Positions 2,552 to 44,330 of a DNA stretch of 64,000 bases are shown piece after piece. Every line of letters starts with the position of its first letter. The first letter of the stretch is position 1. Made by a program: the position numbers and the translations under genes. Under the pieces are notes generated by a model. The model was not told the DNA's origin and made no database searches. It saw only the letters and a program-made list of their open reading frames with translations. This stretch comes from Salipaludibacillus daqingensis (GTDB lineage: Bacteria > Bacillota > Bacilli > Bacillales > Salisediminibacteriaceae): the NCBI RefSeq assembly GCF_029891575.1, contig NZ_JARZHF010000006.1:248001-312000 (forward strand), read 5' to 3'.

Positions 2552-2709
2552 TTAGTACGCACGTCATGTGCAGAAGTGCTTAATCCTCTAATTAGTAAGG
2601 TTTACGTGAAGACTAAATCAAGCTTACACTTTAAAAGTATTATCTTGGCTATCAGGAAGATAATAGAATCAAAGATTATCCAATACTTATGTTTAAGGGA
2701 GGAAATCGT

Positions 2710-6968: not shown

Positions 6969-8747
6969 TTGGAAACAGAAAAGAAGCTTTTGAGTTTGAT
7001 TAGTTCTGCACGGGTGATGACATCGACACTGGATTTAGATGAGGTTCTTCATCAAATGATTCGTGAAGTACTGAATGTGCTGGAAGGATCGAACGCCAGT
7101 ATTTTATTTTTATATGATAAAAAACACAATTATTTATATCCGAAAGCAGCTGTCGGTTTTGATATGAAGTATTTACAACATGCTCATCTCGCACCAGGAG
7201 AGGGGATGAGTGGGATCACGTTCCAGGCTCGAAAGGGTCAAATATTTCATTCACATACAGAAACAAAACAAAATATGTCCAATATTAGTGAAGAGGTTAA
7301 GGAATTCCACATGTTAGCTCTTGGGGAAAATAAATACCCACAAAGTGCGTTATGTGTTCCACTCCTCGTCAAAGGCGATTGCATTGGGGTACTGACGGTT
7401 GATATTTATGATAAAACTGTTCAGTTTGACGAAGAGCATCTGAAGCTTTTAGAAACATTTGGAGCGCAAGCAACGATTGCGATTGAAAATGCCACGTTGT
7501 TTTCAAGAAATGAACGGACGAACAAAATACATGAAAAATTATCAAAAGTGGCAGTCTCCCAAGGAGGAATCGCTGAAATTACTAAAAGCCTTGGTGAGTT
7601 AATGCAACACGGTGTAGCCGTTTATAATGAATTTTTTGATGTATTGGAAGGTTCTTCTTCTCAAGCGGTGAAAGATGCGAATGATATACGGGGATCACTA
7701 GGCGATACGATTAGTCATGTCGTCAGTGAAAATTCGATATCAACGATCCAAGTACCTCTAAATGAATCCGAAGTGGAAGTGGTTTTCTTCCCTGTGAAAT
7801 CCGATTCGTATACGATTGGGTATTTAACGATCCTTGTTCATGATGAGGCGGAGCTTGACCCATTAGATCGATTCGCGATTGAACAGACGAGTGTTATTTT
7901 CGCCTTGGAAATGACGCGCCGAGAACGAACAGCCTTGAATGAATTGAAACATTCCGGATATTTGCTCGATCAGCTTCTCTACAGTGACTGGAATGAGATG
8001 GCGATTAATCAAATTGCTAAAATGCCTGACTTTACCTCAATGGACTTGAAGTACGTGATCGCTCAGCTTTCGATTATTAACCCGATGTTGTCGATCAAGC
8101 ATTTAACAACAGAAAAAAATAGGTTGCTCCGACTGATTTACCACGAAGTATCTAACTACCAGTATAAAACGTTTGTGCTGGATCAGAATTTAGATACGAC
8201 GTTTTTATTTGCAATTCCAGAAGATATATCAGAAGAGACCATTTACAAAGAGGTGAAAATGATTTTTCAAGCCATTTCCGAACATACGTTAAATGAGTTT
8301 GAATTAAGCTTGGCTGTTGGTATCGGACGATCTGTTTCAGATGTGAAAGACGTGAGGGCGAGTCATCGTGACGCTAAGAAGTGTATCGAATATATCCAGA
8401 AAAAAGGACAAGCGGGAAGCGTCATTAGTTTTCATCAATTAGGAATCCAAAGGTTGCTTCTGAACACGGAATGGAATGAACTCCAAGATTTTGTAGACGA
8501 TACGGTTGGACCGATCATTGATAATGACAAACATTACCACACGATGCTGTTCGATACGCTACACCATTATTTGGAATCGAATAACAATATGGCTGAGACG
8601 GCTAAAACGATGTTTGTTCATGTCAATACGATTAAATATCGATTGAAACAAATGGAGAATCTTCTTGGTATTGATAAGGTCAGTGGTTCAAAGGCGTTTG
8701 AGCTTCAGCTTGGTATCTATATTTACCATTATATAAATAAGAAGTGA
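6969..8747 (+). CDS. GAF-domain PucR/CdaR-family transcriptional regulator
   Basis: 592 aa, TTG start preceded by GAAGAGGGTGG. Cytosolic one-component regulator. An N-terminal GAF domain (about residues 5-175, with SNASILFLYD, LAPGEGMSGI and IGVLTVDIY) should bind a small ligand. A middle segment resembles the CdaR GGDEF-like domain (ELSLAVGIGRSVSDVKDVRASHRDAKKCIEYI). The C-terminus is the PucR-type helix-turn-helix (MAETAKTMFVHVNTIKYRL, about residues 535-590). PucR-family activators commonly control purine, allantoin, proline or glycerate catabolism. The gene lies directly upstream of an M20 carbamoylase/amidohydrolase and a TRAP transporter, which it probably controls (inference from position). 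A terminator separates it from them. Confidence 0.87.
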   Translation: METEKKLLSLISSARVMTSTLDLDEVLHQMIREVLNVLEGSNASILFLYDKKHNYLYPKAAVGFDMKYLQHAHLAPGEGMSGITFQARKGQIFHSHTETKQNMSNISEEVKEFHMLALGENKYPQSALCVPLLVKGDCIGVLTVDIYDKTVQFDEEHLKLLETFGAQATIAIENATLFSRNERTNKIHEKLSKVAVSQGGIAEITKSLGELMQHGVAVYNEFFDVLEGSSSQAVKDANDIRGSLGDTISHVVSENSISTIQVPLNESEVEVVFFPVKSDSYTIGYLTILVHDEAELDPLDRFAIEQTSVIFALEMTRRERTALNELKHSGYLLDQLLYSDWNEMAINQIAKMPDFTSMDLKYVIAQLSIINPMLSIKHLTTEKNRLLRLIYHEVSNYQYKTFVLDQNLDTTFLFAIPEDISEETIYKEVKMIFQAISEHTLNEFELSLAVGIGRSVSDVKDVRASHRDAKKCIEYIQKKGQAGSVISFHQLGIQRLLLNTEWNELQDFVDDTVGPIIDNDKHYHTMLFDTLHHYLESNNNMAETAKTMFVHVNTIKYRLKQMENLLGIDKVSGSKAFELQLGIYIYHYINKK

Positions 8748-8803
8748 CGTTGTTTCTATCGTGGTATACGTCGTTTTTCTTATCATCATATTCGATTAGC
8801 TTT

Positions 8804-8826
8804 AAGCCTACAGGTATTGTAGGCTT
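8804..8826 (+). terminator. Terminator after PucR-type regulator
   Basis: 9-bp stem AAGCCTACA / TGTAGGCTT with a 5-nt loop, followed by ATTTGT. A modest T tract. Confidence 0.65.
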
Positions 8827-8944
8827 ATTTGTCTGATACCGATAAAAACCTCTTGTTATGTTTGTGTTATCAAGACATATCTGAATTTACTAAATTGTCT
8901 TATAATTTAAGTTATCAATTTATTTTCGGTCACAGGAGGCACCT

Positions 8945-10228
8945 ATGTATCAGACACTCATGGAATCATATCAGTCAGAATTATCCTATTCAGGTGTGGA
9001 CGGAAGTCGTTTAGCTAAACGATTGCATGAACTTTCCCGAATTGGTCTAACAGAAGATGATGGTTGTAACCGTATCTCTTTCACAAAAGAAGAGCAACAG
9101 GCGAAAGATTTAGTGAAAAAATGGATGGAAGAAGCGGGACTTCACGTGAATCAAGACGGTGCGGGGAATGTGATTGGTAGAATAGAAGGCGTTTCATCGA
9201 CGACAACAATCATGTCTGGGTCCCATTTAGATAGTGTTCCAAATGGTGGTCACTTTGACGGTCCACTTGGCGTCCTTTCCGCTCTTGAAGTAGTGCAAGC
9301 TTGGAAAGATACGGGATACACACCAGAAAAATCGTATGAAGTGGTTGTGTTTACTGACGAAGAGGGGGCACGCTTTAAAAGTGGCCTCACTGGTAGTCAG
9401 GCGATGACTGGAACATTTGATTTGTCGCAAAAACAAACGTTGTTTGATTCGGAAGGGCAGTCATTTGAGGAAGTTCTCGCACAGAATAATCTCAGCTTGG
9501 CAACGTTAAAAGAAGCAAAACGTGACTTCAGCTCGATTGAAGCTTTTGTAGAAGTGCATATTGAACAGGGAAAACGTCTGGAGAAAGAAGATCTTCCCGT
9601 TGGTGTCGTGCAGGGAATTGCCGGACCTTCTTGGGTGGATGTGAGCTTTTACGGTTCTGCTGGACACGCTGGGAATACGCCGATGAATGATCGACAAGAT
9701 GCGTTGATTGCGGCGAGTCACTTTATTACGGAGATAGAAAAGCTACCATCAAAAGTTAGTGAATCTGCTGTGGCAACCGTTGGGAAACTATTTGTGAAAC
9801 CTAATGGGATTAATGTCATTCCAGGAGAAGTCCAGTTAACGGTCGATATTCGTGATATTCATGAAGATACACGTGATCAGCTTCGAGAAGATATTTTTGC
9901 CAAAGGAAAACAAATTGCAGCTGAGAGAAATGTTCAGGTGGAATTAACTGAAATTATGTCGACACCTCCAGTAAAGGTGAAGGAAGAGATGCAACAAAAA
10001 GCAGCGAAGGCGATGGAAAAATCGTTAAATAAAAAGCCTTATTTCCTTCCAAGTGGTGCTGGTCATGATGCGATGATTATCGGTGGACAAACAGATATTG
10101 CCATGTTGTTTACGAGAAGTAAGGACGGGGTTAGTCATAACCCAGCGGAGTGGTCTTCACTTGATGATTGTGTTCAAACCGTTCATGTATTGAAAAATCT
10201 ATTAGAAGAGTTATGTTCCGCGTCGTAG
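8945..10228 (+). CDS. M20-family N-carbamoyl-L-amino acid hydrolase / allantoate amidohydrolase
   Basis: 427 aa; ATG 8945 behind AGGAGG (8935-8940). Cytosolic dimetal amidohydrolase that hydrolyses N-carbamoyl amino acids or allantoate. Metal and catalytic motifs are visible: GSHLDSVPNGGHFDG (His/Asp ligands), FTDEEGARF (catalytic and bridging Glu), VEVHIEQG (His ligand) and SGAGHDAM (C-terminal His ligand). The dimerisation-domain signature GIAGPSWVDVSFYGSAGHAGNTPM holds the substrate-binding His and Asn. The substrate class cannot be chosen from sequence alone. The downstream TRAP transporter, 31 bp away, suggests that the substrate or a related carboxylate is imported as a unit. Confidence 0.9.
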   Translation: MYQTLMESYQSELSYSGVDGSRLAKRLHELSRIGLTEDDGCNRISFTKEEQQAKDLVKKWMEEAGLHVNQDGAGNVIGRIEGVSSTTTIMSGSHLDSVPNGGHFDGPLGVLSALEVVQAWKDTGYTPEKSYEVVVFTDEEGARFKSGLTGSQAMTGTFDLSQKQTLFDSEGQSFEEVLAQNNLSLATLKEAKRDFSSIEAFVEVHIEQGKRLEKEDLPVGVVQGIAGPSWVDVSFYGSAGHAGNTPMNDRQDALIAASHFITEIEKLPSKVSESAVATVGKLFVKPNGINVIPGEVQLTVDIRDIHEDTRDQLREDIFAKGKQIAAERNVQVELTEIMSTPPVKVKEEMQQKAAKAMEKSLNKKPYFLPSGAGHDAMIIGGQTDIAMLFTRSKDGVSHNPAEWSSLDDCVQTVHVLKNLLEELCSAS

Positions 10229-10259
10229 TTTATAACTATATGAAAAAAGGGGAGAGGTC

Positions 10260-11384
10260 ATGATGACAAAATACGGATGGAAACTATCCATGTTCACTGC
10301 AGCTGCTTTGTTTCTTAGTGCTTGCGGAGTAGAAAGTGGAAATAGTGGAAACAACGATGAGACAGATGTGGAAGTAAATGAAGGAAATAACAATGTTGTT
10401 GAAGATGAGACAAATAACAACGAAGCGAATAATAACGGTGAGGCAGCAGAAGCAGAAGTTGAATATGAATGGCAAATTGGCTGGAACTCAGGTCTTGATG
10501 ATGATTCTAAAGGGGAAGCGGCAAAAGCATTCGCAGAACATGTGATGGAAGCTTCGAATGGAAGAGTAGATATTGAGTTCTTCCCAAATGAAACGTACGC
10601 AAGTTCTCCGGAAATGATCGATGCTGTTCAAGTTGGTGCGTTGGATATGGCGTTACCTGGTGCGAACGAGCTAGCTGGGGCTATTCCAGAATATGCCGCT
10701 TTATCTCTTCCGTTTTTGACAGAAGGGTTTGAAGAAGCACATGCAGTGCTTGATGGGCCGGTTGGCGATGACTTGAAAGCGTTGGGCGAAGAGCAAGGGT
10801 TTATTACGTTAAATGATGTAGAAATTGGCTTCGCGCAGATTACGAATAGTGTGAGACCAATTGAAGAGCCGTCTGATTTGGAAGGATTGTCGATTCGATC
10901 GCCTAATGATGTAAGTTTGATCGAGACGTTTAATGCCCTTGGTTCATCTGTTTCAACGATGGATTATACAGAAATTTACAGTGGGTTGTCTCAAGGGGTT
11001 ATCGATGGGCAATTTAACCCTCTTCTAAGCATTTATGATCAAAATATGCAAGAAGTTCAAGACTATCTTGCGATAACGAATCACACGTATTACTATTCTT
11101 ACTTCATTATGAATGATGATTTATTCAATAGTTTAGATGAAGAGTTACAAGAGATTGTCCGTGAAGGTTCGGAGCATGCTCGCGATGCTGCTCGTGACTT
11201 CATTGCAGGTGAAGAAGAAGCTGCTATTGAACGTGCGGAAGATGAGTTCGAGGTTGTGACGTATCCTGATCTTGAGCCTTTCCAGGAAGCTGTTTTACCA
11301 GTATATGACGAAGTGTCTGATGTGATGGGAGAAGAAATCATCGCAGATATGCAGGACTTCCTTGAAGAGTATCGAAATAATTAA
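10260..11384 (+). CDS. dctP: TRAP transporter substrate-binding lipoprotein (DctP family)
   Basis: 374 aa. Extracytoplasmic solute receptor of a TRAP transporter, anchored as a lipoprotein: hydrophobic N-terminus with lipobox LSAC (Cys about residue 22). An Asn/Glu/Gly-rich acidic spacer (about residues 23-68) holds the receptor off the membrane. The DctP fold follows: QIGWNSGLDDDSKGEAAKAF, IEFFPNETY, VQVGALDMA, and the hinge and ligand Arg region ITNSVRPIEEPSDLEGLSIRSP. Start: ATG 10260 or the next codon ATG 10263, both served by GGGGAGAGG. It follows the M20 hydrolase and precedes the two permeases, separated from them by a hairpin. Confidence 0.93.
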   Translation: MMTKYGWKLSMFTAAALFLSACGVESGNSGNNDETDVEVNEGNNNVVEDETNNNEANNNGEAAEAEVEYEWQIGWNSGLDDDSKGEAAKAFAEHVMEASNGRVDIEFFPNETYASSPEMIDAVQVGALDMALPGANELAGAIPEYAALSLPFLTEGFEEAHAVLDGPVGDDLKALGEEQGFITLNDVEIGFAQITNSVRPIEEPSDLEGLSIRSPNDVSLIETFNALGSSVSTMDYTEIYSGLSQGVIDGQFNPLLSIYDQNMQEVQDYLAITNHTYYYSYFIMNDDLFNSLDEELQEIVREGSEHARDAARDFIAGEEEAAIERAEDEFEVVTYPDLEPFQEAVLPVYDEVSDVMGEEIIADMQDFLEEYRNN

Positions 11385-11405
11385 TCTAATTGATTGAAAC
11401 TTTTG

Positions 11406-11429
11406 AGGGACCTGTTTCGACAGGTCCCT
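11406..11429 (+). terminator. Intra-operon hairpin (attenuator or mRNA-stability element)
   Basis: 10-bp perfect stem AGGGACCTGT / ACAGGTCCCT closed by a TTCG tetraloop, in the 68-bp gap between dctP and the small permease. The poor T tract suggests partial termination or 3'-end protection. That would leave receptor mRNA more abundant than permease mRNA. Confidence 0.7.
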
Positions 11430-11452
11430 TGTGTTATTAGGGAGGGAATAAT

Positions 11453-11992
11453 ATGGCTCAAGTAAATGCAAAGAAAGAAAAGAATTGGTTTGACTATATC
11501 ATCGGCTGGACAGAAATTGCTGCTTCCGTTTTACTTATTGGGTTAACCGTTATTGTATTTGGAGAAGTGCTGAGTAGGTACGTTTTTCGTACGCCGCTCG
11601 TTTTTTCAAATGAATTAACACAGCTATTATTCCCTTGGATGATTTTTGTAGCAGCGATCAGTGTGACGAAAGAAGATGGACATCTGGCCGTTTCCTATTT
11701 TCGCGATCGATTACCTTACGTGATGCAAAAGGGGCTTTATGTTTTTTCGAAGCTAATTATGTTGTTCTTCTCTGTGTACATGGTCATTGCCAGTGTTAAG
11801 TACGTGGATAATGTTTCAAGTCAACTCATGCCGGTCATCCGAATTTCAAGAGGGTGGTTGTCTGGCTCTTTGACGGTGTCTTTTGTTTTTATCAGTATCA
11901 TTCTTATTTATCAAATCGTTTTAATCTTGACGAATAAATTAGACGTGCAGCGAGAGGAGGATACTTTAGATGATATGGATTATGATCGCTAG
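11453..11992 (+). CDS. dctQ: TRAP transporter small permease (DctQ family)
   Basis: 179 aa, ATG 11453 behind AGGGAGGG. Four predicted membrane segments. The family signature GEVLSRYVFRTPLVFSNELT and the ISVTKEDGHLAVSYF loop after segment two identify the DctQ subunit, which scaffolds the large permease. Its end overlaps the next gene by 23 bp, so the two are translationally coupled. Confidence 0.92.
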   Translation: MAQVNAKKEKNWFDYIIGWTEIAASVLLIGLTVIVFGEVLSRYVFRTPLVFSNELTQLLFPWMIFVAAISVTKEDGHLAVSYFRDRLPYVMQKGLYVFSKLIMLFFSVYMVIASVKYVDNVSSQLMPVIRISRGWLSGSLTVSFVFISIILIYQIVLILTNKLDVQREEDTLDDMDYDR

Positions 11993-13244
11993 TTTTTTTG
12001 TATTGCTCGTGTTGGGCATTCCGATTGCATTTGCAATGGGGGCTTCGGCATTAATGTATATCTTAGTTACAGGTATTCCTCTGGAAATGTTTGCACAGCG
12101 GTTCTTTTCTAATACGCAATCATTCGCCTTTCTAGCGATTCCCTTTTTTATTCTTGCTGGTAATTTAATGATTCACGGAAACATTGCACAGCGAATTATT
12201 AAAGTTGCCGATTCGATGGTTCGTCAACTCCCCGGTGGTTTAGGGTGCGTCTCTGTTGTCACAAGCATGGGGATGGCGGGTGTGTCTGGTTCATCCGTTG
12301 CTGATGCGGCTTCAACGGGAAGTGTATTAATTCCGGAGATGAAGCGGAAGGGGTATAGCGCAAGATTCGCTGCTTCGATTAATGCTTCTAGTTCGGTTGT
12401 TGGTATTATCATTCCTCCTAGTTCGACGATGATTATCATTGCTTGGTTAGCTAATTTGTCCGTTGGAGAAATGTTTATTGCCGGGATTATTCCTGGTGTG
12501 TTAGTTGGGTTAGCTTATTTAGGGACAACTGTTTTGATCGCATTGAAGCGAGGGTATCCTAGTGAGTCGAAACCAACTTTTATGGAATTTTTGCGAAACT
12601 TCCGCCACGCTTTGTTAGCGTTGTTACTGCCGATTTTGTTAATTTCGGCGATTATTACTGGTGTAGCCACGGCAACAGAAGCGGCTTCGTTAGCGGTTGT
12701 TTATGCGTTGATCATCGGCGTGTTTGTTTATAGAACGCTTAACTGGAAAAATATTATGTTGTCGTTAAAAGACACGGCGCGTGGAACGAGTATTGTCATG
12801 GTGACGATTTGTGCGTCGATGATTTTTACATGGGTACTTATTTCAGAAGGCATTCCGCGGATGATTTCCGATAACTTGGAAGGCTTAGGCTTACCGCCGT
12901 GGGGGCTTTTGATGGTGATGATCGCAATTATGCTGATTGCCGGAATGATTATGGAGCTTGTTCCTAACTTGTTTTTATTCATTCCGATCTTCATGCCGAT
13001 TGCGACAGACATTATCGGAATGGATCCGATGCACTTTGCGATGATCATGCTCGTCACATTGGCACTAGGTATGTTTACACCTCCAGTTGGCGCAACATTA
13101 TTTATCTCGTGCTACATTGCAAAAGTGAAAATAGAAGACACAGTCAAAGACATCTTCCCATATTTCTTAACAGGTATTCTTGTTGTTCTACTAATCTCTT
13201 TCTTCCCAGCGAGCGTCCTTTGGTTGCCCGGATTGTTTGAGTAG
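11970..13244 (+). CDS. dctM: TRAP transporter large permease (DctM family)
   Basis: 424 aa, about 11-12 membrane segments. This is the ion-coupled (usually Na+) transport subunit. DctM signatures seen: FAFLAIPFFILAGNLM, GMAGVSGSSVADAASTGSVLIPEM, NASSSVVGIIIPPSSTMII and FTPPVGATLFI. Start inside the end of dctQ (23-bp overlap). It completes a three-gene TRAP system with the receptor. Substrate is unknown; dicarboxylates, sialic acid, ectoine or ureido acids are all transported by relatives. A dispersed REP-like repeat begins 22 bp after the stop. Confidence 0.94.
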   Translation: MIWIMIASFFVLLVLGIPIAFAMGASALMYILVTGIPLEMFAQRFFSNTQSFAFLAIPFFILAGNLMIHGNIAQRIIKVADSMVRQLPGGLGCVSVVTSMGMAGVSGSSVADAASTGSVLIPEMKRKGYSARFAASINASSSVVGIIIPPSSTMIIIAWLANLSVGEMFIAGIIPGVLVGLAYLGTTVLIALKRGYPSESKPTFMEFLRNFRHALLALLLPILLISAIITGVATATEAASLAVVYALIIGVFVYRTLNWKNIMLSLKDTARGTSIVMVTICASMIFTWVLISEGIPRMISDNLEGLGLPPWGLLMVMIAIMLIAGMIMELVPNLFLFIPIFMPIATDIIGMDPMHFAMIMLVTLALGMFTPPVGATLFISCYIAKVKIEDTVKDIFPYFLTGILVVLLISFFPASVLWLPGLFE

Positions 13245-13726: not shown

Positions 13727-14476
13727 TTACAATTGAAAGAATCGTTTAAATGAATACAGCGTTGTGGCCTTGTTTAATTCTGCAATGGAATGTGTCAGAG
13801 GGATTTCTTTTGGACAGACTTCAGCGCAGTTTGCCGCATTTCCACAAGACGTCAGCCCGCCATCACCCATAATCTGATCAAGTCGCTCTTCTGCCTGAAT
13901 CTGTCCTGTCGGATGCGTGTTAAATAGACGTACTTGAGACAAAGGCGCAGGACCGATAAACGATGAATATGGGTTCACGTTTGGACACGCTTCAAAACAA
14001 AGTCCGCAAGTCATACATTTACTCAATTCGTAAGCCCATTGCCGATCTTTTTCAGGTATCTTCGGTCCCGGTCCCATATCGTAAGTGCCATCAATGTCAA
14101 TCCAGGCTTTTACTTCCTTCAATGCATCAAACATCTTTTGACGGTCCACCATTAAATCCCGCTCACATGGAAATGTTTTTAAAGGAGCCAGATGGATTGG
14201 CTGTTCCAGTGTATCCACAAGGGTTGAGCATGCCTGTCGCGGTTTCCCGTTGACGAGCATTGAGCACGCACCGCAAACCTCTTCCAGACACACGGACTCC
14301 CATTGAACAGGGGTGGTTTCGTCGCCGTTGATATTCATCGGGTTGCGTCTAATTTCTATCAATGCTGAAATAATATTCATGCTTGGGCGCCATGGCACAT
14401 TGAACTCTTCGACATAGGGCTCGGAAGAAGGTCCATCTTGTCGATTAATCTTTAAATGAACTGTCTTACCGGTCAT
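13727..14476 (-). CDS. sdhB: Succinate dehydrogenase / fumarate reductase iron-sulfur subunit
   Basis: 249 aa. Passes electrons between the flavoprotein and the membrane haem subunit. All three clusters are visible: 2Fe-2S ligands in VCLEEVCGACSM and a downstream Cys in PRQACSTL; 4Fe-4S in CMTCGLCFEACP; 3Fe-4S in CGNAANCAEVCPKEIP. Length and motifs match the Bacillus menaquinone-type SdhB. The start overlaps the sdhA-like stop by 4 bp (ATGA). It is last in an operon that begins with asparaginase, so the complex may run as a fumarate reductase rather than in the citric acid cycle (inference; direction cannot be read from sequence). Confidence 0.93.
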   Translation of the reverse strand: MTGKTVHLKINRQDGPSSEPYVEEFNVPWRPSMNIISALIEIRRNPMNINGDETTPVQWESVCLEEVCGACSMLVNGKPRQACSTLVDTLEQPIHLAPLKTFPCERDLMVDRQKMFDALKEVKAWIDIDGTYDMGPGPKIPEKDRQWAYELSKCMTCGLCFEACPNVNPYSSFIGPAPLSQVRLFNTHPTGQIQAEERLDQIMGDGGLTSCGNAANCAEVCPKEIPLTHSIAELNKATTLYSFKRFFQL

Positions 14477-16242
14477 GATGTTACACCTCCCTTTTTATTC
14501 TGGGTGTAATCTCGTTTTCTCGGTTCAATCAACGATGTATCCACTTCTGCATAACTGAAGGAAGGATTGCGTTTTTGCGTATCAAATGCAGCCATAGTGG
14601 TTTTTAACCATTCGTCATCATTCCGGTCAGGGAATTCCGGTTTGTAATGAGCCCCGCGGCTTTCATTTCTGTGAAGAGCACCTTGTGTGATCACTTTCGC
14701 CAAATCCATCATCCCACTCAGTCCTCGAATGAAAGAAACGGAGTGATTATGGTATTTCGTCGTATCCTGAACGTTTATGTTTTTATATCTTGCCATCATT
14801 TCCGTAAGCATTTCATCTGCCTTGACAAGGTTTTTGTTTTCCCTTACAACTGTAACATTTTCCGTCATTAGTTCGCCCATTTCGTGATGGAGAGTATAAG
14901 GGTTTTCACTGCCGTTCATGCTGAGAATCGCAGTGATTTCATCCTTATCGGCTTTCAGCTGAGAGGTGAAGACTCGCTCGTCAACGTCATCCACGGATTG
15001 ACTGTTATTGCGGACATACGTCGCTGCTTCAGGGCCTGCAACCATTCCACCATAAACCGCTGATAAAAGAGAATTGGCACCAAGACGATTCGCACCGTGC
15101 TGGGAATAATCACATTCTCCTGCTGCAAACAGGCCGGGAATATTAGTCTGCTGGTGGTCATCCACCCATAGTCCACCCATTGAATAATGAACACCTGGGA
15201 AGATTTTCATAGGAACTTTTCTCGGATCGTCCCCCATGAATTTTTCATAAATCTCAAGAATTCCACCCAACCTTACATTGAGACGTTCCGGATTGATATG
15301 TGAGACATCAAGATAGACTTTATTTTCTCCGTCAATCCCTAGCCTTTGATTCACGCAAATATCGAAAATTTCTCTAGTGGCAATGTCACGGGGAACGAGG
15401 TTCCCGTATGCCGGATATTTATCTTCAAGAAAATACCACGGCTGTCCGTTCTTATAAGTCCATACCCTTGCTCCTTCTCCTCTTGCAGACTCACTCATCA
15501 GCCTCAATTTATCCTCTCCCGGGATGGCAGTAGGGTGGATTTGGATGAATTCACCATTCGCATAAATTGCACCCTGCTGATATAATTTACCTGCAGCTGA
15601 GCCTGTATTGATTAATGAATTCGTTGATCGCCCGAAAATCATTCCCGGACCGCCGCTTGCTATAATCACCGCATCTGCTTTGAATACTTTAATATCCATT
15701 GAAATCATCTCTTGTGCAGTCAGTCCGCGGCAAATTCCTTGTTCATCAATAATTGCCGAAACGAAATCCCATCCTTCAAACTTCGTGACTCGTCCTTCAG
15801 CTTCATATTTTCGAACTTGCTCATCCAAGGCGTAAAGAAGCTGCTGCCCCGTTGTTGCACCGGCAAAAGCCGTCCGCCGGTGTTGTGTACCTCCAAAACG
15901 TCTAAAATCGAGGTGGCCTTCAGGCGTCCGATTAAACATCACACCCATCCTGTCAAAGAGGTAGATGATTTCTGGTGCTTTTTGACACATGCCCCAAACC
16001 TGCTGCTGATTGGCAAGGAAATCACCCCCATAAAGGGTGTCATCAAAATGTTCCCAAGGTGAATCATTTTCTCCTTTCATATTACACGCCCCGTTAATTC
16101 CTCCTTGTGCACAAACGGAGTGGGATCGTTTCACTTTTACCAGTGAGATGAGGTCCACGTTCATGCCCATTTCGACTATTTTTAGTGTCGCCATGAGGCC
16201 GGCTAGTCCACCGCCCACAACTGCTATTTTTTGTCTATTCAT
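14473..16242 (-). CDS. sdhA: Succinate dehydrogenase / fumarate reductase flavoprotein subunit
   Basis: 589 aa. FAD-binding catalytic subunit interconverting succinate and fumarate on the cytosolic face of the membrane. Rossmann motif VVGGGLAGLMA at the N-terminus; covalent-FAD region RSHSVCAQGGINGA; active-site stretches EFIQIHPTAIPG, SESARGEGARVW and HYSMGGLWVD; C-terminal GECDYSQHGANRLGANSLL and RNESRGAHYKPEFPDR. Very close in pattern to Bacillus SdhA. Start set at ATG 16242 because AGGAGG lies 9 nt upstream; the ATG at 16248 is only 3 nt from it and an upstream extension to 16281 would overlap the previous gene. Confidence 0.94.
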   Translation of the reverse strand: MNRQKIAVVGGGLAGLMATLKIVEMGMNVDLISLVKVKRSHSVCAQGGINGACNMKGENDSPWEHFDDTLYGGDFLANQQQVWGMCQKAPEIIYLFDRMGVMFNRTPEGHLDFRRFGGTQHRRTAFAGATTGQQLLYALDEQVRKYEAEGRVTKFEGWDFVSAIIDEQGICRGLTAQEMISMDIKVFKADAVIIASGGPGMIFGRSTNSLINTGSAAGKLYQQGAIYANGEFIQIHPTAIPGEDKLRLMSESARGEGARVWTYKNGQPWYFLEDKYPAYGNLVPRDIATREIFDICVNQRLGIDGENKVYLDVSHINPERLNVRLGGILEIYEKFMGDDPRKVPMKIFPGVHYSMGGLWVDDHQQTNIPGLFAAGECDYSQHGANRLGANSLLSAVYGGMVAGPEAATYVRNNSQSVDDVDERVFTSQLKADKDEITAILSMNGSENPYTLHHEMGELMTENVTVVRENKNLVKADEMLTEMMARYKNINVQDTTKYHNHSVSFIRGLSGMMDLAKVITQGALHRNESRGAHYKPEFPDRNDDEWLKTTMAAFDTQKRNPSFSYAEVDTSLIEPRKRDYTQNKKGGVTS

Positions 16243-16267
16243 TTCCATTTGCCTCCTGTTGGATTCA

Positions 16268-16876
16268 TCATACAAATGCAAAGATTGCTATTAATCCGAT
16301 CGCTGAAAGCCCGATAAACATTAATATACCAAGTATTATTCCGAACTTCTGACTTCGTTGATTTACAGTGATTCCCCATGTAATCAGCATCGTTCTGAAG
16401 CCATTACTGAAATGATAGGTCGTCATCAAAATTCCGACGATATAAAACATCAGATAGATCGGGTTGGAAACGAGGTTCGCCACCATATCATAATTTACTT
16501 CGGCTCCAAATGCAGCAGGTACCCTCGTCGTGCCCACATGCCAAATTAAGAAGAGAAATACTACAATGCCAGATAAACGTTGGAAATAAAAATACATATT
16601 CTTTTCATAACGGTAAACAGATAAGTTGTTCTTAGCTTCCCTAGCAATGGCAATCCCATATATCCCGTGAAACAGCAACGGAATAAAGATAATGAAGATC
16701 TCCATCGCGTACCTGAACGGTAAGTTTCCCATCATCGCAGCGGCAGTGTTGTAGGCATCTTCTCCGTAAAATGCCGTGTAGTTGATACCAAAGTGAACGA
16801 AAAGAAAAACTCCAATGGGAATCACCCCTGACAGAGAATGAAGTTTTCTCCAAAAAAACGTTCGGTCATTATTCAC
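16268..16876 (-). CDS. sdhC: Succinate dehydrogenase / fumarate reductase cytochrome b558 subunit
   Basis: 202 aa, five membrane segments, membrane anchor carrying two b-type haems and the menaquinone site. Candidate haem ligands are the conserved His in WRKLHSLSG, FVHFGIN, LFHGIYG, IWHVGTTR and TTYHFSNGF, the same set and spacing as Bacillus SdhC. Start: GTG 16876 (VNNDRTFF) with AAGGAG 8 nt upstream; a GTG at 16885 overlaps that site. It begins 14 bp after the aspartase stop, so aspA and sdhCAB are almost certainly one transcript. Confidence 0.92.
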   Translation of the reverse strand: MNNDRTFFWRKLHSLSGVIPIGVFLFVHFGINYTAFYGEDAYNTAAAMMGNLPFRYAMEIFIIFIPLLFHGIYGIAIAREAKNNLSVYRYEKNMYFYFQRLSGIVVFLFLIWHVGTTRVPAAFGAEVNYDMVANLVSNPIYLMFYIVGILMTTYHFSNGFRTMLITWGITVNQRSQKFGIILGILMFIGLSAIGLIAIFAFV

Positions 16877-16890
16877 AACAGTCACTCCTT

Positions 16891-18312
16891 CTATTGTTCA
16901 ATTAGCGATTTTCCAGAAATACCCGGATTGGTCATCTCATAAGGATCGAGGATCTCATCGAGCTCATCCTCTGAAAGGACGCCGCGCTCTATGCAGATGT
17001 CTCGGACCGGACGTCCCGTTGCGATGGCTTCCTTGGCAATGGATGACGCCGATTCATAGCCGATATGCGGATTGATTGCTGTAATCACCCCTACACTTTG
17101 ATTCACGTACTGTTCCATTCGCTCATTGTTAGCCTTAATTCCCTGAATACAATGACGATCGAATACGTCAATCACATTTGTCATCATTCTGATGGTGTCG
17201 AGGAGACTTGAAACAAGAACAGGCTCCATGACATTTAGTTCAAACTGTCCAGCTTCGGATGCAAGGGTAACTGTTACATCATTTCCGATCACTTTAAAGG
17301 CAACCTGATTTACGACTTCTGCCATAACCGGATTTACTTTTCCAGGCATGATTGAAGAGCCTGGTTGTCTCGGTGGCAGGAGTATTTCATTCAAACCTGT
17401 CCTCGGTCCTGAAGCCATTAACCGCAAATCGTTGGAAATTTTTGACAGGTTGGACATTGCCGTTTTCATGGTGCTTGATACAGTCACGTACACATCAGTG
17501 TTTTGCGTACCGTCGACAAGATTCGGTGATGTTGTCATCGGAAAACTACTAATCTCAGCCAATTCTTGAATTACAATGTGAATATAATCCGGATCGGCAT
17601 TCAACCCGGTACCTACGGCCGTTGCACCCATATTTGTCTCGTAAAGAGACTCTATTACGTTGCGGATGCGCTTGATATCACGTTCAAGCACCGCTGAATA
17701 GGCACCGAATTCCTGGCCAAGTCGAATCGGAACGGCGTCCTGAAGGTGGGTTCTACCCATCTTTAGACAGTTTTCAAATTCCGAAGCCTTTTCCAGAAAA
17801 GAAGCTTGTAGCGATTCTATTGCAGGTAGCAACTGATTTAGACGATTCAATAAAGCAAGTTTGAATGCCGTAGGAAATGCATCGTTAGTGGACTGAGACA
17901 TATTGACATGAGAATTAGCACTGAGCACCATTGTATTACCTTTCTCTTCACCGAGTATCTCCAGAGCCCGGTTGGCGATGACTTCATTGGCATTCATGTT
18001 AACGGACGTTCCGGCCCCGCCCTGAATCGGATCGACGATAAACTGATCGTTCCAGCGACCATTCGCTACTTCCATGGCAGCCTGCTCGATGGCATCTGCA
18101 AGATGAGCACCCAGCTGACCCACTTTACGGTTCGCTCGTGCTGCAGCAATCTTGACCATACCGATCCCGCAAATCAGCTCCTCATCGATATGTTGACCGG
18201 TAATTGGAAAATTCTCGACAGCCCGCAATGTTTGAATTCCGTAATAACACTCATTATGAATCTTCATTTCACCAAGAAAATCTTTCTCTATACGGTGTGT
18301 ATTCCCATTCAT
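16891..18312 (-). CDS. aspA: Aspartate ammonia-lyase (aspartase)
   Basis: 473 aa. Deaminates L-aspartate to fumarate plus ammonium. The fumarase/aspartase superfamily signature GSSIMPGKVNP (flexible catalytic loop) is present. The N-terminus (RIEKDFLGEMKIHNECYYGIQT) and SQSTNDAFPTAFKLA are aspartase-like, close to Bacillus AnsB. Start: ATG 18312 (MNGNTHRIEK), 8 nt after GGAGG. A GTG- or ATG-initiated upstream extension lacks a ribosome site. Placement between asparaginase and sdhCAB makes an asparagine, aspartate, fumarate, succinate route. Confidence 0.94.
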   Translation of the reverse strand: MNGNTHRIEKDFLGEMKIHNECYYGIQTLRAVENFPITGQHIDEELICGIGMVKIAAARANRKVGQLGAHLADAIEQAAMEVANGRWNDQFIVDPIQGGAGTSVNMNANEVIANRALEILGEEKGNTMVLSANSHVNMSQSTNDAFPTAFKLALLNRLNQLLPAIESLQASFLEKASEFENCLKMGRTHLQDAVPIRLGQEFGAYSAVLERDIKRIRNVIESLYETNMGATAVGTGLNADPDYIHIVIQELAEISSFPMTTSPNLVDGTQNTDVYVTVSSTMKTAMSNLSKISNDLRLMASGPRTGLNEILLPPRQPGSSIMPGKVNPVMAEVVNQVAFKVIGNDVTVTLASEAGQFELNVMEPVLVSSLLDTIRMMTNVIDVFDRHCIQGIKANNERMEQYVNQSVGVITAINPHIGYESASSIAKEAIATGRPVRDICIERGVLSEDELDEILDPYEMTNPGISGKSLIEQ

Positions 18313-18351
18313 TATTTTTTCCTCCATAACTACAGAATTCACCATAACAAA

Positions 18352-18398
18352 AACACAGTGTGTGGCATGGAGATATACCCAATTCTCACACCTGTGTT
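18352..18398 (-). terminator. Internal terminator between transporter and aspA
   Basis: On the minus strand an imperfect hairpin (arms AACACAGGTGTG and CACACTGTGTT) is followed by TTTTTGTT. It lies in the 118-bp gap after the transporter, so read-through into aspA-sdhCAB may be partial, or a second promoter may exist. Confidence 0.6.
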
Positions 18399-18430
18399 CT
18401 TGTTGATGAATAGATGATTATTAGTTTTAA

Positions 18431-19699
18431 TTAATTAATAAACAGTACGACGAAAAATAATACTGCTAAACCACCAAGAATGGACGGTCTTTGGAACTTA
18501 TTGGCTAATTTTAAATCGGACCCTGGTACAACTGGAACCGTTGTTGCTAGGGCAGCAACTGGTCCACCCGTTAAATAATATTGCATAATTGCACAACCGC
18601 CAGCACCTGCAGCAGCAGCTGCCAATGGAGAGACATCATATTGAAGAACTATGGTTAAGAATGGGATGACAATTGCAGCAGAAGCAGCGTTTGATTGCGT
18701 TATAAGTCCTGCCAGTGCCGATACGGCTAACATAACCAAAATAGGTGAGTAAGTTAGTAATGGATCAAACCAGTCAGCCATAATATCAACAATACCGATA
18801 TTTTGAATCACAGATGACATAAAAAGAAAACCTAAAGTCGCAATTAAGGGAACTGCCACTCTTTTTACGCCTTCAAGCATCATTTCCTCAGCCTTCTTTA
18901 ATGATACTTTTGCAAATATCGCAACTAGGATTGATGAAGCGACACCAACTATAAACACAGGGTATCCGACAGAGAAACCTACGACTAAGACGATAAAAGG
19001 AATGATTGCCAGTATGAAGCTTCTTTCATTATCAATGTCTTCGAGATCCTTAAGTATACTGTTTACTTCTTGTTCAGTGAGCTTGATATCATTACTTCTC
19101 TCTTCACGTTTTAAACGAAGATAGCTGATTCCAATGATAGACATTGCCACAAATGCACCTATTAGATTGATCCATCCAAAGGTAATTCCCGCAGTTGCAA
19201 TAACTGCTAACAATGTAGGATGGGTAAAGCCACCGAAGTTACCTAGGTGACCTGCATGAGCTTGAATCCCCGCTACTTTGTTGGGATTAACACCTAGTTT
19301 GATTGCAGCGGGACCTGTGATTACTGCAGTAATCGCGGGTTGAGTAAAACCTGTTAATCCACCAATTACACCTGCAGCAGCGCTTCCCGCACCTGCGATG
19401 CCCGGTCCGCCACCGATTTTACTTCCTAATAAAATAATTTTTCTTATGATCGCATTTAAAAAACCTGTTTTTTCCATCACACCAATGAAAAGCAACACTC
19501 CTGCCATATCAGCAATGACTGGATGCAGGCTGCCATTGACTAAGCTGAGTACCGTGATCTCTGCATCACCTGACAACGGAAACCCTGCACTGATGGCAGC
19601 TAAAGTGGAACCAATAATGGCTGTCATGTAGAGAGGTGTTTTCCCAGTAATCATCAAAATTAAAGTTGCCAGCATGATTAATTGAGCAAATAATATCAT
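18431..19699 (-). CDS. Ion-transporter-superfamily permease (GntP/DcuC/CitM-like), probable Asn/Asp/C4-dicarboxylate carrier
   Basis: 422 aa, about 11-12 membrane segments with the inverted-repeat architecture of the ion transporter superfamily. Glycine-rich re-entrant regions GIAGAGSAAAGVIGGLTGFTQ, HAGHLGNFGGFTHP and ITQSNAASAA are the likely substrate and cation sites. Exact family was not recognised, so the substrate is inferred only from its place between asparaginase and aspartase. Start: ATG 19699, 9-10 nt after AAGGAG; the ATG at 19708 lies inside that site. 47 bp separate it from the asparaginase, with no terminator. Confidence 0.8.
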   Translation of the reverse strand: MILFAQLIMLATLILMITGKTPLYMTAIIGSTLAAISAGFPLSGDAEITVLSLVNGSLHPVIADMAGVLLFIGVMEKTGFLNAIIRKIILLGSKIGGGPGIAGAGSAAAGVIGGLTGFTQPAITAVITGPAAIKLGVNPNKVAGIQAHAGHLGNFGGFTHPTLLAVIATAGITFGWINLIGAFVAMSIIGISYLRLKREERSNDIKLTEQEVNSILKDLEDIDNERSFILAIIPFIVLVVGFSVGYPVFIVGVASSILVAIFAKVSLKKAEEMMLEGVKRVAVPLIATLGFLFMSSVIQNIGIVDIMADWFDPLLTYSPILVMLAVSALAGLITQSNAASAAIVIPFLTIVLQYDVSPLAAAAAGAGGCAIMQYYLTGGPVAALATTVPVVPGSDLKLANKFQRPSILGGLAVLFFVVLFIN

Positions 19700-19746
19700 G
19701 TAAATCATCTCCTTATAAGTGAATCATTTCACATAAATGACCTTAA

Positions 19747-20709
19747 TTAATCTGTAAATCCTTTATTAACGTCTGTGTGTGAGCGAAGAAGTGCAATTAA
19801 TTTCAATCTAGCTTTCTTGGAGTTCATATCACTGCCCAAAACAACACCATTTTCGTATAAATGAAGGGCACTGGCATAGTAGTCGTATGTTGTGTTCACC
19901 CTTCCTTGTTCACTCGATGTTGTAAGTACAAATTGGATTCCTTTTTCGATTGCCTTTAATATCGACTCCATTTGATTGGGAGCAATTTGTCCTCTACCAT
20001 TTGCCTCTAATATAATCCCTTTTACATTAAAATTAGTACAAGCATCTATTAATAAGCCATCCGCATCAAGATAACATTTAATTATTTCTACTTTAGGGAT
20101 GACATTATCTACTGGTGGATAAACTTGGCGATCTGCCGGCTTCTGATACAAGATTACTTTTTGACCGTCAATCGTTCCTAAATGACCATAACCAAAAGAT
20201 TCAAAGCCTTGTAGATTATATGCATGCTCCTTTTTCACATATTTAGCAGAAAATATTCTTTCGTTAAAGACAACTACAGTGCCAATTCCAAATAGTTTGT
20301 CAGATGATGCAGCACATATGGATTGAATTAAATTCGTATCGGCATCACTCCCTGAAGCACTTGAAGATCGTTGTGATCCTGTAACTACAACAGGATTGGA
20401 ATGATCTATAATCAAATCCAAATAATAAGCTGCTTCTTCCAGTGAATCTGTTCCATGAGTGATGACTGCACCGTGAAAACCCTGATCAAACAAACCTAAA
20501 ATTTTATCAGCGATTAGATCCAAATCTTCCAATGAAATGTGCATACTGGGTTTATTTAATAAAGAAAAGATTGTTACTTCTGTATCACTTGGTATTTCTT
20601 CGAGATCGCAATAATCTTCACTAGCTAAAACTCCCGATACAAGCCTCCCTTCCTTGTTTTGTTTACTTGCAATCGTACCTCCCGTTGTGATTAATGCGAT
20701 TTTTTTCAT
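19747..20709 (-). CDS. ansA: L-asparaginase
   Basis: 320 aa. Hydrolyses L-asparagine to aspartate and ammonia. Both asparaginase active-site signatures are present: TTGGTIAS (first catalytic Thr) and THGTDSLEEAAYYL (second Thr and the Asp), plus the Lys region SAKYVKKEHAYNL. Start at ATG 20709 (MKKIALITTGGTIAS) with GGAGGAGGG upstream; the longer open frame reaching 20802 has no ribosome site and was rejected. No signal peptide, so it is probably cytosolic, acting on asparagine imported by the next gene. First gene of the minus-strand cluster, divergent from a two-component system. Confidence 0.93.
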   Translation of the reverse strand: MKKIALITTGGTIASKQNKEGRLVSGVLASEDYCDLEEIPSDTEVTIFSLLNKPSMHISLEDLDLIADKILGLFDQGFHGAVITHGTDSLEEAAYYLDLIIDHSNPVVVTGSQRSSSASGSDADTNLIQSICAASSDKLFGIGTVVVFNERIFSAKYVKKEHAYNLQGFESFGYGHLGTIDGQKVILYQKPADRQVYPPVDNVIPKVEIIKCYLDADGLLIDACTNFNVKGIILEANGRGQIAPNQMESILKAIEKGIQFVLTTSSEQGRVNTTYDYYASALHLYENGVVLGSDMNSKKARLKLIALLRSHTDVNKGFTD

Positions 20710-20886
20710 CTGAACCCTCCTCCTATTTCTTTCGTTAAAGATACTGTACTCTGATTCCTTCAAAAAACTACAAAGTTCTACTGAAAAAAATGAAACTGTC
20801 AAAATTTCGACATAATCAAGAATTATTGCCTATCAATTGATTGATAAAATATAAGTAGATATAAATGGAATTAAGTGGTGATTAAA

Positions 20887-22176
20887 GTGAAACGAAAAAA
20901 CGTGAATATCATTCTTTTGTATATCGCTATGGTTATTTTAATTGTAGTTTCAGATGTATTTCATTTAATAGAAATGGAAACATCTTTTTTTATCACTTTG
21001 AGTGTTCCAGTCTTTTTATTGTTTTTACTATATTTTTATTCCCTCTCTCCAATACTTTCAGGGGTTGTTGTTGGGACTACATTATTTTCATCACGAACGA
21101 TTATTTCGATTGTGGATCAAGTGCCCTTATCAGACGCTTTAATGCTTCACTTTCCAGTAATTGTTTTTTTCTGCATCTATGGGATATTATTTTGGCTATT
21201 CTATTTACAACGATTTTACAGTAGACCTGGTTTTATCGGCATATATGCCATCATACTTGATACAGCATCATCTTTCGCAGAGCTGGCTGTCCGAAACACT
21301 TTATCACTTACGGATCCGTCGTTCTCACTTATGGGCACCGTTATTTTTCTTGCGATTTTAAGAAGTTTTTTCGTGATGGGTTTTTTCATGCTTATCCTTT
21401 ATAACAAAGAACAGACAAAGCATGAAGAAGAAAAGAAACAAAGTGATCATATGTTTTTATTAATATCTGATTTATACGCTGAGAGTGTTCAATTAAAACA
21501 CTCTATCTCAAGAGCAGAAAAAATCACATCAAATCTTTATTATCTGTCAAAGCAATTAAAAGAAGAACAAGCATCACAATCATCAAAAAAAATACTTGAA
21601 ATGGCTGGCGAAGTGCATGATTTCAAGAAAGATCACCAAAGAATTTTTGCTTCCCTTGCTCAAATAATCAAAGATCAAAAAAAAACTGAGCACCTGAATA
21701 TTTGCGAGCTTCTTGAAATTGTCATTAAATCAAATGAATCGTATGCAGCTTATTTAGATAAACAAATAATATTCTCTGTCACAGTTGATAATAAAAATGA
21801 TATGATACATTCGTTTTTGACGATGTCAGTGTTAAATAACTTAATTGGTAATTCAATCGAATCTATTCAAAAGTGGGGATCCGTTGATATTCAGATCGAG
21901 AATCCAGATAATAATGCGTTCATTCGTATCCATATTACTGATAACGGACCTGGGATTCCTTTTCATAATCAATCTCTGATTTTCTCTCCTGGTTTTACAA
22001 CGAAGTTTAATGACGAAGGTAATCCGTCAAACGGTATTGGATTATCGTATATTAAACACTCATTGAATAAATACAATGGAGATATCAAACTGGTTGAGTC
22101 AATTTCCAATATTCAAACTTGTTTTTCGGTCATCATTCCTCGGAATATTGAATTTGAACAGAAGGAGGCATTTTAA
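20887..22176 (+). CDS. GlnK-like sensor histidine kinase
   Basis: 429 aa from GTG 20887 (GGTGAT just upstream; GTG 20875 is an alternative). Five to six N-terminal membrane segments (about residues 5-175), a coiled-coil linker, then a kinase core with the GlnK/LytS-like phospho-acceptor region GEVHDFKKDHQRI, N box NNLIGNSIES, DNGPGI and a GIGLSYIK lid. This resembles the B. subtilis GlnK (YcbA) sensor that controls glutaminase and glutamine uptake. Here it lies divergent to asparaginase and its transporter, so asparagine or a product is the likely signal (inference). Stop and next start overlap by one base (TAATG). Confidence 0.87.
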   Translation: MKRKNVNIILLYIAMVILIVVSDVFHLIEMETSFFITLSVPVFLLFLLYFYSLSPILSGVVVGTTLFSSRTIISIVDQVPLSDALMLHFPVIVFFCIYGILFWLFYLQRFYSRPGFIGIYAIILDTASSFAELAVRNTLSLTDPSFSLMGTVIFLAILRSFFVMGFFMLILYNKEQTKHEEEKKQSDHMFLLISDLYAESVQLKHSISRAEKITSNLYYLSKQLKEEQASQSSKKILEMAGEVHDFKKDHQRIFASLAQIIKDQKKTEHLNICELLEIVIKSNESYAAYLDKQIIFSVTVDNKNDMIHSFLTMSVLNNLIGNSIESIQKWGSVDIQIENPDNNAFIRIHITDNGPGIPFHNQSLIFSPGFTTKFNDEGNPSNGIGLSYIKHSLNKYNGDIKLVESISNIQTCFSVIIPRNIEFEQKEAF

Positions 22177-23075
22177 TGAATTATTTTATAGTTGATGATG
22201 ATCCTGCTGTAAGAGGAATATTGAAACATATAATAGAAATGGAAAATGGGAATGTTGTCGGAGAAGCTGAAGATGGCAGTAATGTTTTTTCATACATGTT
22301 AAACCAGACTGAAACAGATATTCTTATTATTGATTTACTTATGCCGGAAGAAGATGGTATAGAAACCGTCAAAAGAATTAACTCTGACTACGTTGGAAAA
22401 ATAGTGATGATATCACAAGTCGAAACAAAAGAAATTATTGCCGAGGCATATCAGAACAAAGTGGAGGCATATATCACTAAACCTGTTAATCGATTAGAGG
22501 TATTATCCGTTTTATCAAAAGTTTCTAAAAATCTTAAACTAGAGAGATCAATGACTCAAATAAAAAATAGCTTGGAGTGGGTTGGCAGTAATGATGAGAT
22601 GGTCACAAAAAAAGATTCAATGGATGTAGATATTATTGGGAATGCTGATACCGTTCTCTCAGATCTGGGCATAAGATATGAAAAAGGTGCAGATGATCTT
22701 ACCGATATCCTCCGTGCCATTAATTCCGAAAAAATATCTACTTTTTCTTCATTAAAAGAATTATGGGTATCAAGTCTTTGTATTAGTGGTCAACAAGCCA
22801 GTTCGAAGAACATCAAAGCAACTGAACAAAGGGTTCGAAGGGCTGTTATTCAAGCATTTAATCATATTTCTTCTCTTGGTGCCATGGATGTCACTCATCC
22901 AAAGTTTGATTATTATGCAATGAGATTTTTTGACCTTGATCAAGTTCAGCAACGAATTTTTGAACTGAATCATCATAGTCAGGAAAAAAAGTCACCCCAG
23001 TCTCGTTTGAATATTAAACGTTTTATTATGGCTTTTTACGATGAATGCCAACAGCAAAGAACCACTGGAAATTAA
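22176..23075 (+). CDS. GlnL-like response regulator with YcbB domain
   Basis: 299 aa. N-terminal receiver (residues about 1-120) with DDD near the N-terminus, phospho-acceptor Asp in IIDLLMPEEDG and Lys in AYITKPVNRLE. The C-terminal half (about 155-295, LSDLGIRYEKGADDL ... RVRRAVIQAFNHI) matches the YcbB domain of B. subtilis GlnL rather than a standard LytTR or wHTH domain. Partner of the upstream kinase; expected to activate the divergent asparaginase cluster. A strong terminator follows at 23174-23210, after a REP-like repeat. Confidence 0.9.
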   Translation: MNYFIVDDDPAVRGILKHIIEMENGNVVGEAEDGSNVFSYMLNQTETDILIIDLLMPEEDGIETVKRINSDYVGKIVMISQVETKEIIAEAYQNKVEAYITKPVNRLEVLSVLSKVSKNLKLERSMTQIKNSLEWVGSNDEMVTKKDSMDVDIIGNADTVLSDLGIRYEKGADDLTDILRAINSEKISTFSSLKELWVSSLCISGQQASSKNIKATEQRVRRAVIQAFNHISSLGAMDVTHPKFDYYAMRFFDLDQVQQRIFELNHHSQEKKSPQSRLNIKRFIMAFYDECQQQRTTGN

Positions 23076-40605: not shown

Positions 40606-40702
40606 CATTTGATTAATCTAAGGAGGTGACTACTGTCTGACCCGTTGTCTGTTACGTATTTTTACTTAATTTTTAATTTGAAAAAATGAGAGGAGATTGT
40701 TT

Positions 40703-43802: not shown

Positions 43803-44330
43803 ACATATTTTAAGTAGGACTATACGACGTTTAATGAAAGTTGATTTATCTATTGGGTGTAAAAAGTATGATGAATTTATTAGTTTCGGCTCTATGATTA
43901 GTTCAAAGCAAAGAGATTTGTATTTCATTCGCTTTTTATCTCGCTTTTTTCCATTAAATAGAGATAGAAGTACTTATTTTTTGTAAAACGACTGATTCGA
44001 TTAGATTAAGCTTATTCATGGATTAGAAAATACGTTATGCCTTGATAGAGATAGGGCAGTGTTAGGAAGAGGAAGCTAAAATATTTTTATTTTTCTAAAA
44101 AATAATTATGGACTTATTTCGTTTTTCGAATTAAATGAAACATGATAATTAAAATGATAGTGAAACAGCTACTTTAGGCATGGGAATAAGTTCATGAATT
44201 GGTCAGACGTCTGTTTATCTAACGTTTACATCACTTGTCGTATAATATTATACTTTACTTGCTATTACTATCTTCAATCAGTAATAGAACGATAGATTAT
44301 CACTTAATCATTAAGGGAGGAAATCGTTTT

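Follow-up and report, generated by a model that had tools for sequence, protein, structure and literature searches.

Fumarate respiration fed by asparagine or aspartate is already known in Proteobacteria. In Actinobacillus succinogenes the genes Asuc_0140-0142 (ansB-aspA-dcuA) are reported to feed fumarate respiration by aspartate/succinate antiport, and Dcu carriers in general export the succinate formed by fumarate respiration, which DcuA does in exchange for aspartate (PMC10634366). Here we describe a gene cluster of Salipaludibacillus daqingensis in which genes for an asparaginase, a permease and an aspartase are followed by a complete complex II set, sdhCAB. It is located in a window of 64,000 nucleotides (NZ_JARZHF010000006.1, positions 248,001 to 312,000), the whole stretch of DNA analyzed, which belongs to contig C6; the genome is 4.58 Mb in size and assembled in 27 contigs. 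The order ansA, permease, aspA, sdhC, sdhA, and sdhB on the minus strand, with a GlnK/GlnL-type pair facing it, was confirmed from coordinates and strands.

As in A. succinogenes, genes for asparaginase, aspartase, and a carrier are clustered. The carrier there is the C4-dicarboxylate carrier DcuA, while the permease of the window is not a Dcu protein, and the A. succinogenes asparaginase is periplasmic, while that of the window looks cytoplasmic. No reductase gene is named for the A. succinogenes cluster and the term sdh is absent from the main text describing it (PMC10634366), whereas the present cluster includes SdhCAB. In gene arrangement, the kinase and regulator located beside an amidase and an uptake gene resemble GlnK-GlnL with glsA-glnT of Bacillus subtilis, where the pair is described as controlling a glutaminase and an uptake gene (PMC2743287). 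The window has an asparaginase instead and aspA-sdhCAB downstream. Wolinella SdhABE was annotated as succinate dehydrogenase and proved to be a methylmenaquinol:fumarate reductase (PMC2680327). It represents another branch, with SdhE, and the SdhA of the window scores only 278 against a cut-off of 1100 on its model. The SdhCAB of Bacillus type is usually regarded as the enzyme of the citric acid cycle, and sequence gives little guidance on the direction in which a complex II works.

In a literature search limited to titles and abstract openings, with full texts and most subscription papers outside its scope, no description of an aspA-sdhCAB cluster was found among the matches listed. The dedicated SdhCAB within the cluster did not appear in these listings either, and would be the new element relative to the proteobacterial systems.

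Complex II Genes of the Cluster

Three adjacent genes on the minus strand encode the complex: sdhC (16268..16885), a diheme cytochrome b558-type anchor (TIGR02046, 144.9 against a cut-off of 96), sdhA (14473..16248), the flavoprotein (PRK08641, 1065.7 against 855), and sdhB (13727..14476), the iron-sulphur subunit (PRK08640, 421.4 against 244). The sdhA reading frame is open to 16281, and comparison with other sdhA copies places the likely start at 16242 or 16248. The 4 bp overlap of sdhA and sdhB noted initially was confirmed from the coordinates. SdhA was also found to exceed the TIGR01811 cut-off (827.9 against 541). As both SdhA and SdhB pass the curated Bacillus-type cut-offs, the set belongs to the Bacillus-type diheme SdhCAB. 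It resembles the Bacillus-type diheme succinate:menaquinone oxidoreductase in subunit make-up, in family scores and in five invariant SdhC histidines. These residues (His 16, 31, 73, 116, and 158) were conserved in all 47 rows compared, as expected of a diheme complex, and the four haem-ligand residues, His 31, 73, 116, and 158, presumably correspond to B. subtilis 28, 70, 113, and 155.

Two other classes were tried and rejected. Membership of the E. coli-type FrdABCD was not found (TIGR01176, 340.2 against 932.7; PRK09231, 354.6 against 854), and the same was the case for the 8-methylmenaquinol:fumarate reductase SdhABE (SdhA, 278.2 against 1100; SdhB, 51.5 against 600). None of the eight proteins scanned matched SdhE, the third gene of the set being the b558-type sdhC. 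The term "fumarate reductase-like" used in the initial annotation was too strong as a statement about sequence, since SdhA scores as a Bacillus-type SdhA and far below the FrdA cut-offs.

A Separate Lineage of SdhCAB Linked to Aspartase

The genome was found to hold three complete sdhCAB sets, the window's included. A fourth flavoprotein match was weak (31 bits). One of the two further sets (L005) adjoins genes looking like murI and a thioesterase, a neighborhood we take to be the usual place of sdhCAB in Bacillus, while the other (L006:6738-9922) stands alone. The SdhA of the window is 79% identical to that of L006 and 70% identical to that of L005. The genome also carries a second aspA, 62% identical to that of the window and located near genes that by eye resemble mreBCD and maf. 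The reading of the set as the housekeeping sdhCAB was rejected, since the genome holds two other complete sets; the refuting condition set at the outset, a genome with no further sdhCAB, thus does not hold.

A tree of joined SdhA, SdhB, and SdhC sequences (47 rows, 1055 columns) was built after six presumed near-copy rows had been dropped (L064, L067, L068, L072, L089, and L090). The tree includes the housekeeping sets of seven of the ten clade genomes, those of G003, G046, and G576 being left out. All nine aspA-linked SdhCAB sets and two unlinked paralogs (L006 and one in G009) formed a single clade with a support of 100/100, which stands apart from the other 36 rows, housekeeping sets among them. 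Trees of the single subunits (46 rows, the long row G025s2 left out) gave the same 11-row clade, with Shimodaira-Hasegawa-like approximate likelihood ratio test (SH-aLRT) values of 98, 97, and 95. No aspA was found near the other 36 rows in the stretch examined, which was only a 1.5 kb flank for 21 of them. The unlinked paralog of G009 lies near genes that by eye resemble a two-part fumarase, and near a DASS transporter (TIGR00785, over the cut-off). Three of the cluster genomes also carry an ordinary AspA, and the AspA proteins of the clusters were found to be distinct from it.

Since two other sets exist and the aspA-linked sets form their own clade, the sdhCAB of the window is not the citric-acid-cycle copy. 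It differs from a housekeeping Bacillus SdhCAB in belonging to a separate, aspartase-tied paralog clade in a genome where a housekeeping copy is also present, and from its sequences the clade is a distinct lineage rather than a recent copy. The proposal of a complex II set tied to asparagine/aspartate breakdown and separate from the citric-acid-cycle copy agrees with the three sdhCAB sets and the separate clade. We are highly confident of the cluster and of its separate SdhCAB lineage.

Residues were taken as diagnostic when identical in all 11 clade rows and absent from 35 others, with at least 90% of those agreeing. This rule left one residue per subunit: SdhA I329, SdhB L99, and SdhC T165. 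For the nine rows from the family alone there were 14, 4, and 7 in SdhA, SdhB, and SdhC, including a change from W to R at SdhC 164.

Distribution among Relatives

Of 35 family genomes examined, 7 had an AspA close to that of the window (E 1e-195 or better), and in all seven sdhCAB directly follows aspA. With G147 and G576 added, aspA-sdhCAB was present in nine genomes, the window's among them, which represent three families. The complete arrangement of ansA-permease-aspA-sdhCAB with a facing kinase and regulator was found in four family genomes, the window's, G012, G018, and G021, with the kinase of the other three in the same place and 69-71% identical. It is because the whole set recurs in these three genomes, and aspA-sdhCAB in nine, that the gene order cannot be put down to chance.

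The remaining clusters of the family (G002, G003, and G046) have a Dcu-family gene before aspA in place of asparaginase and permease, and face a related kinase (38-39% identity) and regulator (53-55%). Thus aspA-sdhCAB is the core common to both types of cluster, with the uptake part exchanged. G147 and G576 each have one SdhA copy in a dcu-aspA-sdhCAB cluster. A regulator like that of the window faces the G147 cluster (43%), and in G576 one is located some 6 kb past sdhB (41%, partial at the edge of the stretch). Altogether, a Dcu-family gene precedes aspA in five of the nine clusters. The calls in G002 and G046 were over NCBIfam cut-offs, that in G003 was over the Pfam cut-off, and those in G147 and G576 were made by tblastn, the products being 71 and 73% identical to that of G002.

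A search of 397 genomes of the order gave SdhC matches this close (E 1e-72) in the family alone. More than one SdhA match at E 1e-268 was found only in the window's genome, G147, and G576, among the matches listed from 299 genomes of the class, with at most four candidates scored per genome. AspA matches at E 1e-193 or better occurred at 74 places in 72 of these 299 genomes. Linkage was checked at 30 loci (29 by tblastn and the window's), and the other 44 were compared by eye with the SdhA places listed, a comparison that covered only places with SdhA among the matches listed.

Parts of the cluster also occur separately. G006 has the kinase and regulator, ansA, and the permease without aspA-sdhCAB, and G001 and G005 have the permease alone of the cluster (19.5 kb examined in each case). 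In G006 (L024, ~7420-9300) similar inverted-repeat stretches, like small mobile elements, were seen on both sides of ansA, in its upstream region and in the gap to the permease. Another flavoprotein-FeS pair, 33-34% and 27-28% identical to the sets of the window's genome, was seen in G001, G006, G021, and G005 (L044, L045, L046, and L059). In G001 it is accompanied by fumarase-type and DASS genes and followed by a CCG-type protein whose best match is the SdhE model (353.6, below the cut-off of 500).

Asparaginase, Permease, Aspartase, and Two-Component Pair

Genes for asparaginase and aspartase occur together in the cluster, as a fumarate respiration cluster fed by asparagine or aspartate requires. 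The ansA gene (19747..20709, minus strand) has a frame open to 20802 and a likely ATG at 20709 behind a purine-rich Shine-Dalgarno sequence. From this start no signal peptide was evident in AnsA. The protein carries both asparaginase Pfam domains (PF00710 and PF17763), and its best match among solved structures was the L-asparaginase 7c91 (E 1.7e-95); it scores below the NCBIfam cut-offs for asparaginase types I and II. The aspA gene (16891..18312, minus strand) encodes an aspartate ammonia-lyase (TIGR00839, 690.7 bits against a cut-off of 681.2). Its frame is open to 18345, with a likely ATG at 18312, also behind a purine-rich Shine-Dalgarno sequence. Residues 17-479 align with the solved aspartase 1J3U, and the catalytic loop GSSIMPGKVNP is intact.

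The permease (18431..19708, minus strand) is CitMHS/DctM-like. CitMHS (PF03600) was the sole domain match in the window protein (38 bits against a cut-off of 31.9), and among eight aligned relatives CitMHS was matched in all and DctM in two. It also adjoins an asparaginase-like gene in L019 and L020. We propose it as the asparagine importer, perhaps exchanging a C4-dicarboxylate. Between two genera the permease shows 92-95% identity, its cluster neighbors being 57-86% identical, and it is found without the cluster in Vibrio records (75% identity; L016-L018). This patchy distribution perhaps reflects horizontal movement.

Facing the cluster on the plus strand are a membrane histidine kinase with a HATPase_c domain (20875..22176), GlnK-like by position and partner, and a GlnL-type response regulator (22176..23075). 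The regulator has the receiver and YcbB output domains of GlnL, both over cut-off (PF00072, 8.1e-22; PF08664, 1.3e-29). The neighboring genes suggest that the signal of the pair is asparagine or aspartate.

Proposed Function of the Cluster

A cell that uses fumarate oxidatively requires fumarase rather than complex II. A complex II beside aspartase makes sense mainly for the conversion of fumarate to succinate, and a Bacillus-type diheme complex can run as a fumarate reductase. For B. subtilis, PMC10308238 cites a succinate dehydrogenase that requires a membrane potential. We consider fumarate respiration fed by asparagine or aspartate, with a dedicated paralog of the Bacillus diheme SdhCAB as the reductase, to be the best reading of the cluster, and somewhat more probable than not. 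The kinase and regulator would sense asparagine or aspartate and switch on the cluster. The permease would import asparagine, which AnsA would convert to aspartate and ammonia, and AspA would convert aspartate to fumarate and ammonia. The dedicated SdhCAB would pass menaquinol electrons to fumarate, and the succinate formed would exit via the permease or an unlinked Dcu carrier. The net result would be two ammonia per asparagine and an electron sink when oxygen is short. For the Dcu-type sister clusters aspartate itself is the likely substrate, because a Dcu carrier replaces asparaginase and permease.

Dcu genes also occur apart from the clusters. The four permease-type genomes carry one elsewhere, near a recQ-like gene in both genomes examined (the window's and G012). 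Among 40 relatives Dcu was found in all six cluster genomes and in 7 of the 34 others (Fisher p 0.0004, kinship ignored). Full-length NrdD, the ribonucleotide reductase of anaerobic growth, was found in five of the six and in 7 of the 34 (p 0.006, kinship ignored). The initial proposal that fumarate serves as an electron acceptor is in agreement with the Dcu genes of five sister clusters and with the co-occurrence with Dcu and NrdD; the direction of electron flow, toward fumarate, we infer. Fumarate from the asparagine route is probably used to respire without oxygen.

Several observations weigh against this reading. The family scores of SdhA and SdhB are those of the Bacillus succinate dehydrogenase, and none of the diagnostic residues found separates reductase from dehydrogenase or is tied to direction. 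L006, though in the aspartase-linked clade, has no evident fumarate-making neighbor. Since the linked AspA proteins fall into two groups, they show no single origin, whereas SdhCAB does. The reductase is no fixed part of dcu-aspA loci either, because G135 has kinase/regulator, dcu, and aspA without sdhCAB, and the 29 loci examined included six with dcu-aspA, of which four had no sdhC within a 1.5 kb flank. A Dcu antiporter is absent from the cluster of the window and from the three other permease-type clusters, and for the permease there was no solved-structure relative by sequence and only an unusable AlphaFold model (mean pLDDT 43.7). A stem-loop separates ansA and the permease from aspA-sdhCAB. 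The association tests for Dcu and NrdD ignore kinship, and within the family both weaken, to p 0.014 for Dcu and p 0.06 for NrdD. When two NrdD fragments are counted, NrdD is present in 9 of the 34 others (p 0.014), and G003 has the cluster and no NrdD match. Finally, E. coli is described as able to use DcuA aspartate/fumarate exchange in air for nitrogen only (PMC10634366).

The strongest competing explanation, which appears unlikely, is that the linked SdhCAB works as an ordinary succinate dehydrogenase, its level rising with asparagine catabolism to give the citric acid cycle more flux in air. This fits its family scores and motifs, which are those of the Bacillus enzyme. Relatives such as G004 and G007, where only one strong SdhA match was found, also manage with that one. 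However, the point at which aspartate-derived fumarate joins the cycle lies beyond complex II, so that fumarase or malate enzymes would be expected, and none was seen in the clusters by eye or by search. Nor would a dehydrogenase account for Dcu genes as partners in five of the nine clusters, or for a distinct clade that is not a recent copy.

It is less probable still that the module serves mainly for ammonia, or for re-oxidation of menaquinol for biosynthesis (haem, pyrimidine) at low oxygen, with little energy gain. Asparaginase and aspartase do release two ammonia, and the GlnL type to which the regulator belongs is a nitrogen type. Both the use of aspartate as a mere nitrogen source and that of fumarate as an acceptor for haem and pyrimidine synthesis are argued in PMC10634366, but this alone leaves unexplained why an entire membrane complex from a lineage of its own stays with aspA. 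A chance neighbor or plain housekeeping sdhCAB is hardly credible, with two other sdhCAB sets in the genome, linkage in nine genomes of three families, and nothing left in its favor.

Fumarate respiration with a dedicated SdhCAB would, if true, point to amino-acid respiration in these Bacilli. A broader proposal, for which the chances seem evenly balanced, is that the aspartase-bound second lineage of Bacillus-type complex II is a dedicated menaquinol:fumarate reductase for amino-acid respiration, running opposite to the textbook direction, and that it spread among families of Bacilli together with aspartase, an uptake part that can be exchanged (Dcu, or asparaginase and permease), and a GlnL-type sensor. 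The housekeeping and the aspartase-linked copy in one cell form a natural pair for asking what sets the direction of the complex.

Transcript Structure and Upstream Region

The stem-loop initially noted near 18352-18398 was found to be real: a stem-loop with a short T run is located between the permease and aspA (18346..18404, minus strand; -26.3 kcal/mol, z -4.9). The three other permease-aspA clusters have one as well, with different sequences (z -6.2, -4.1, and -4.7). The three Dcu-type clusters of the family, inspected by eye, showed no comparable stem between dcu and aspA. It is possible that the stem-loop is an attenuator, a leaky terminator or a processing site, and it may restrain aspA-sdhCAB or separate its expression from that of ansA and the permease. 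With the stem-loop in this position, one transcript for the whole cluster is no more than a possibility.

Upstream of ansA (20768..20815, minus strand) we identified a candidate regulator site, TATGTCGAA-N4-TGACAGTT followed by GTAGAACTTTGTAG, which is conserved in an alignment of five genomes. Its core, TATGTCGAAN{3,5}TGACA, has a single occurrence in the genome, located upstream of ansA. With three mismatches allowed, the longer form of the site also turned up in 30 of 100 shuffled versions of the window, and the block therefore stays a candidate. Between kinase and dcu, G002 and G003 have a similar string in the opposite orientation. Scans for promoter and terminator consensus sequences gave no clear excess over shuffles.

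Other Genes of the Window

An M20-family amidohydrolase and, by eye, a three-part TRAP transporter set (8945-13244, plus strand) converge on sdhB. Two 5'-nucleotidase-type genes with the same domain make-up lie about 40 kb apart (2689-4557 and 44235-46169). A GH16 glycosidase and a subtilase (40697-43582 and 56526-61841), both large, share the same C-terminal FIMAH domain.

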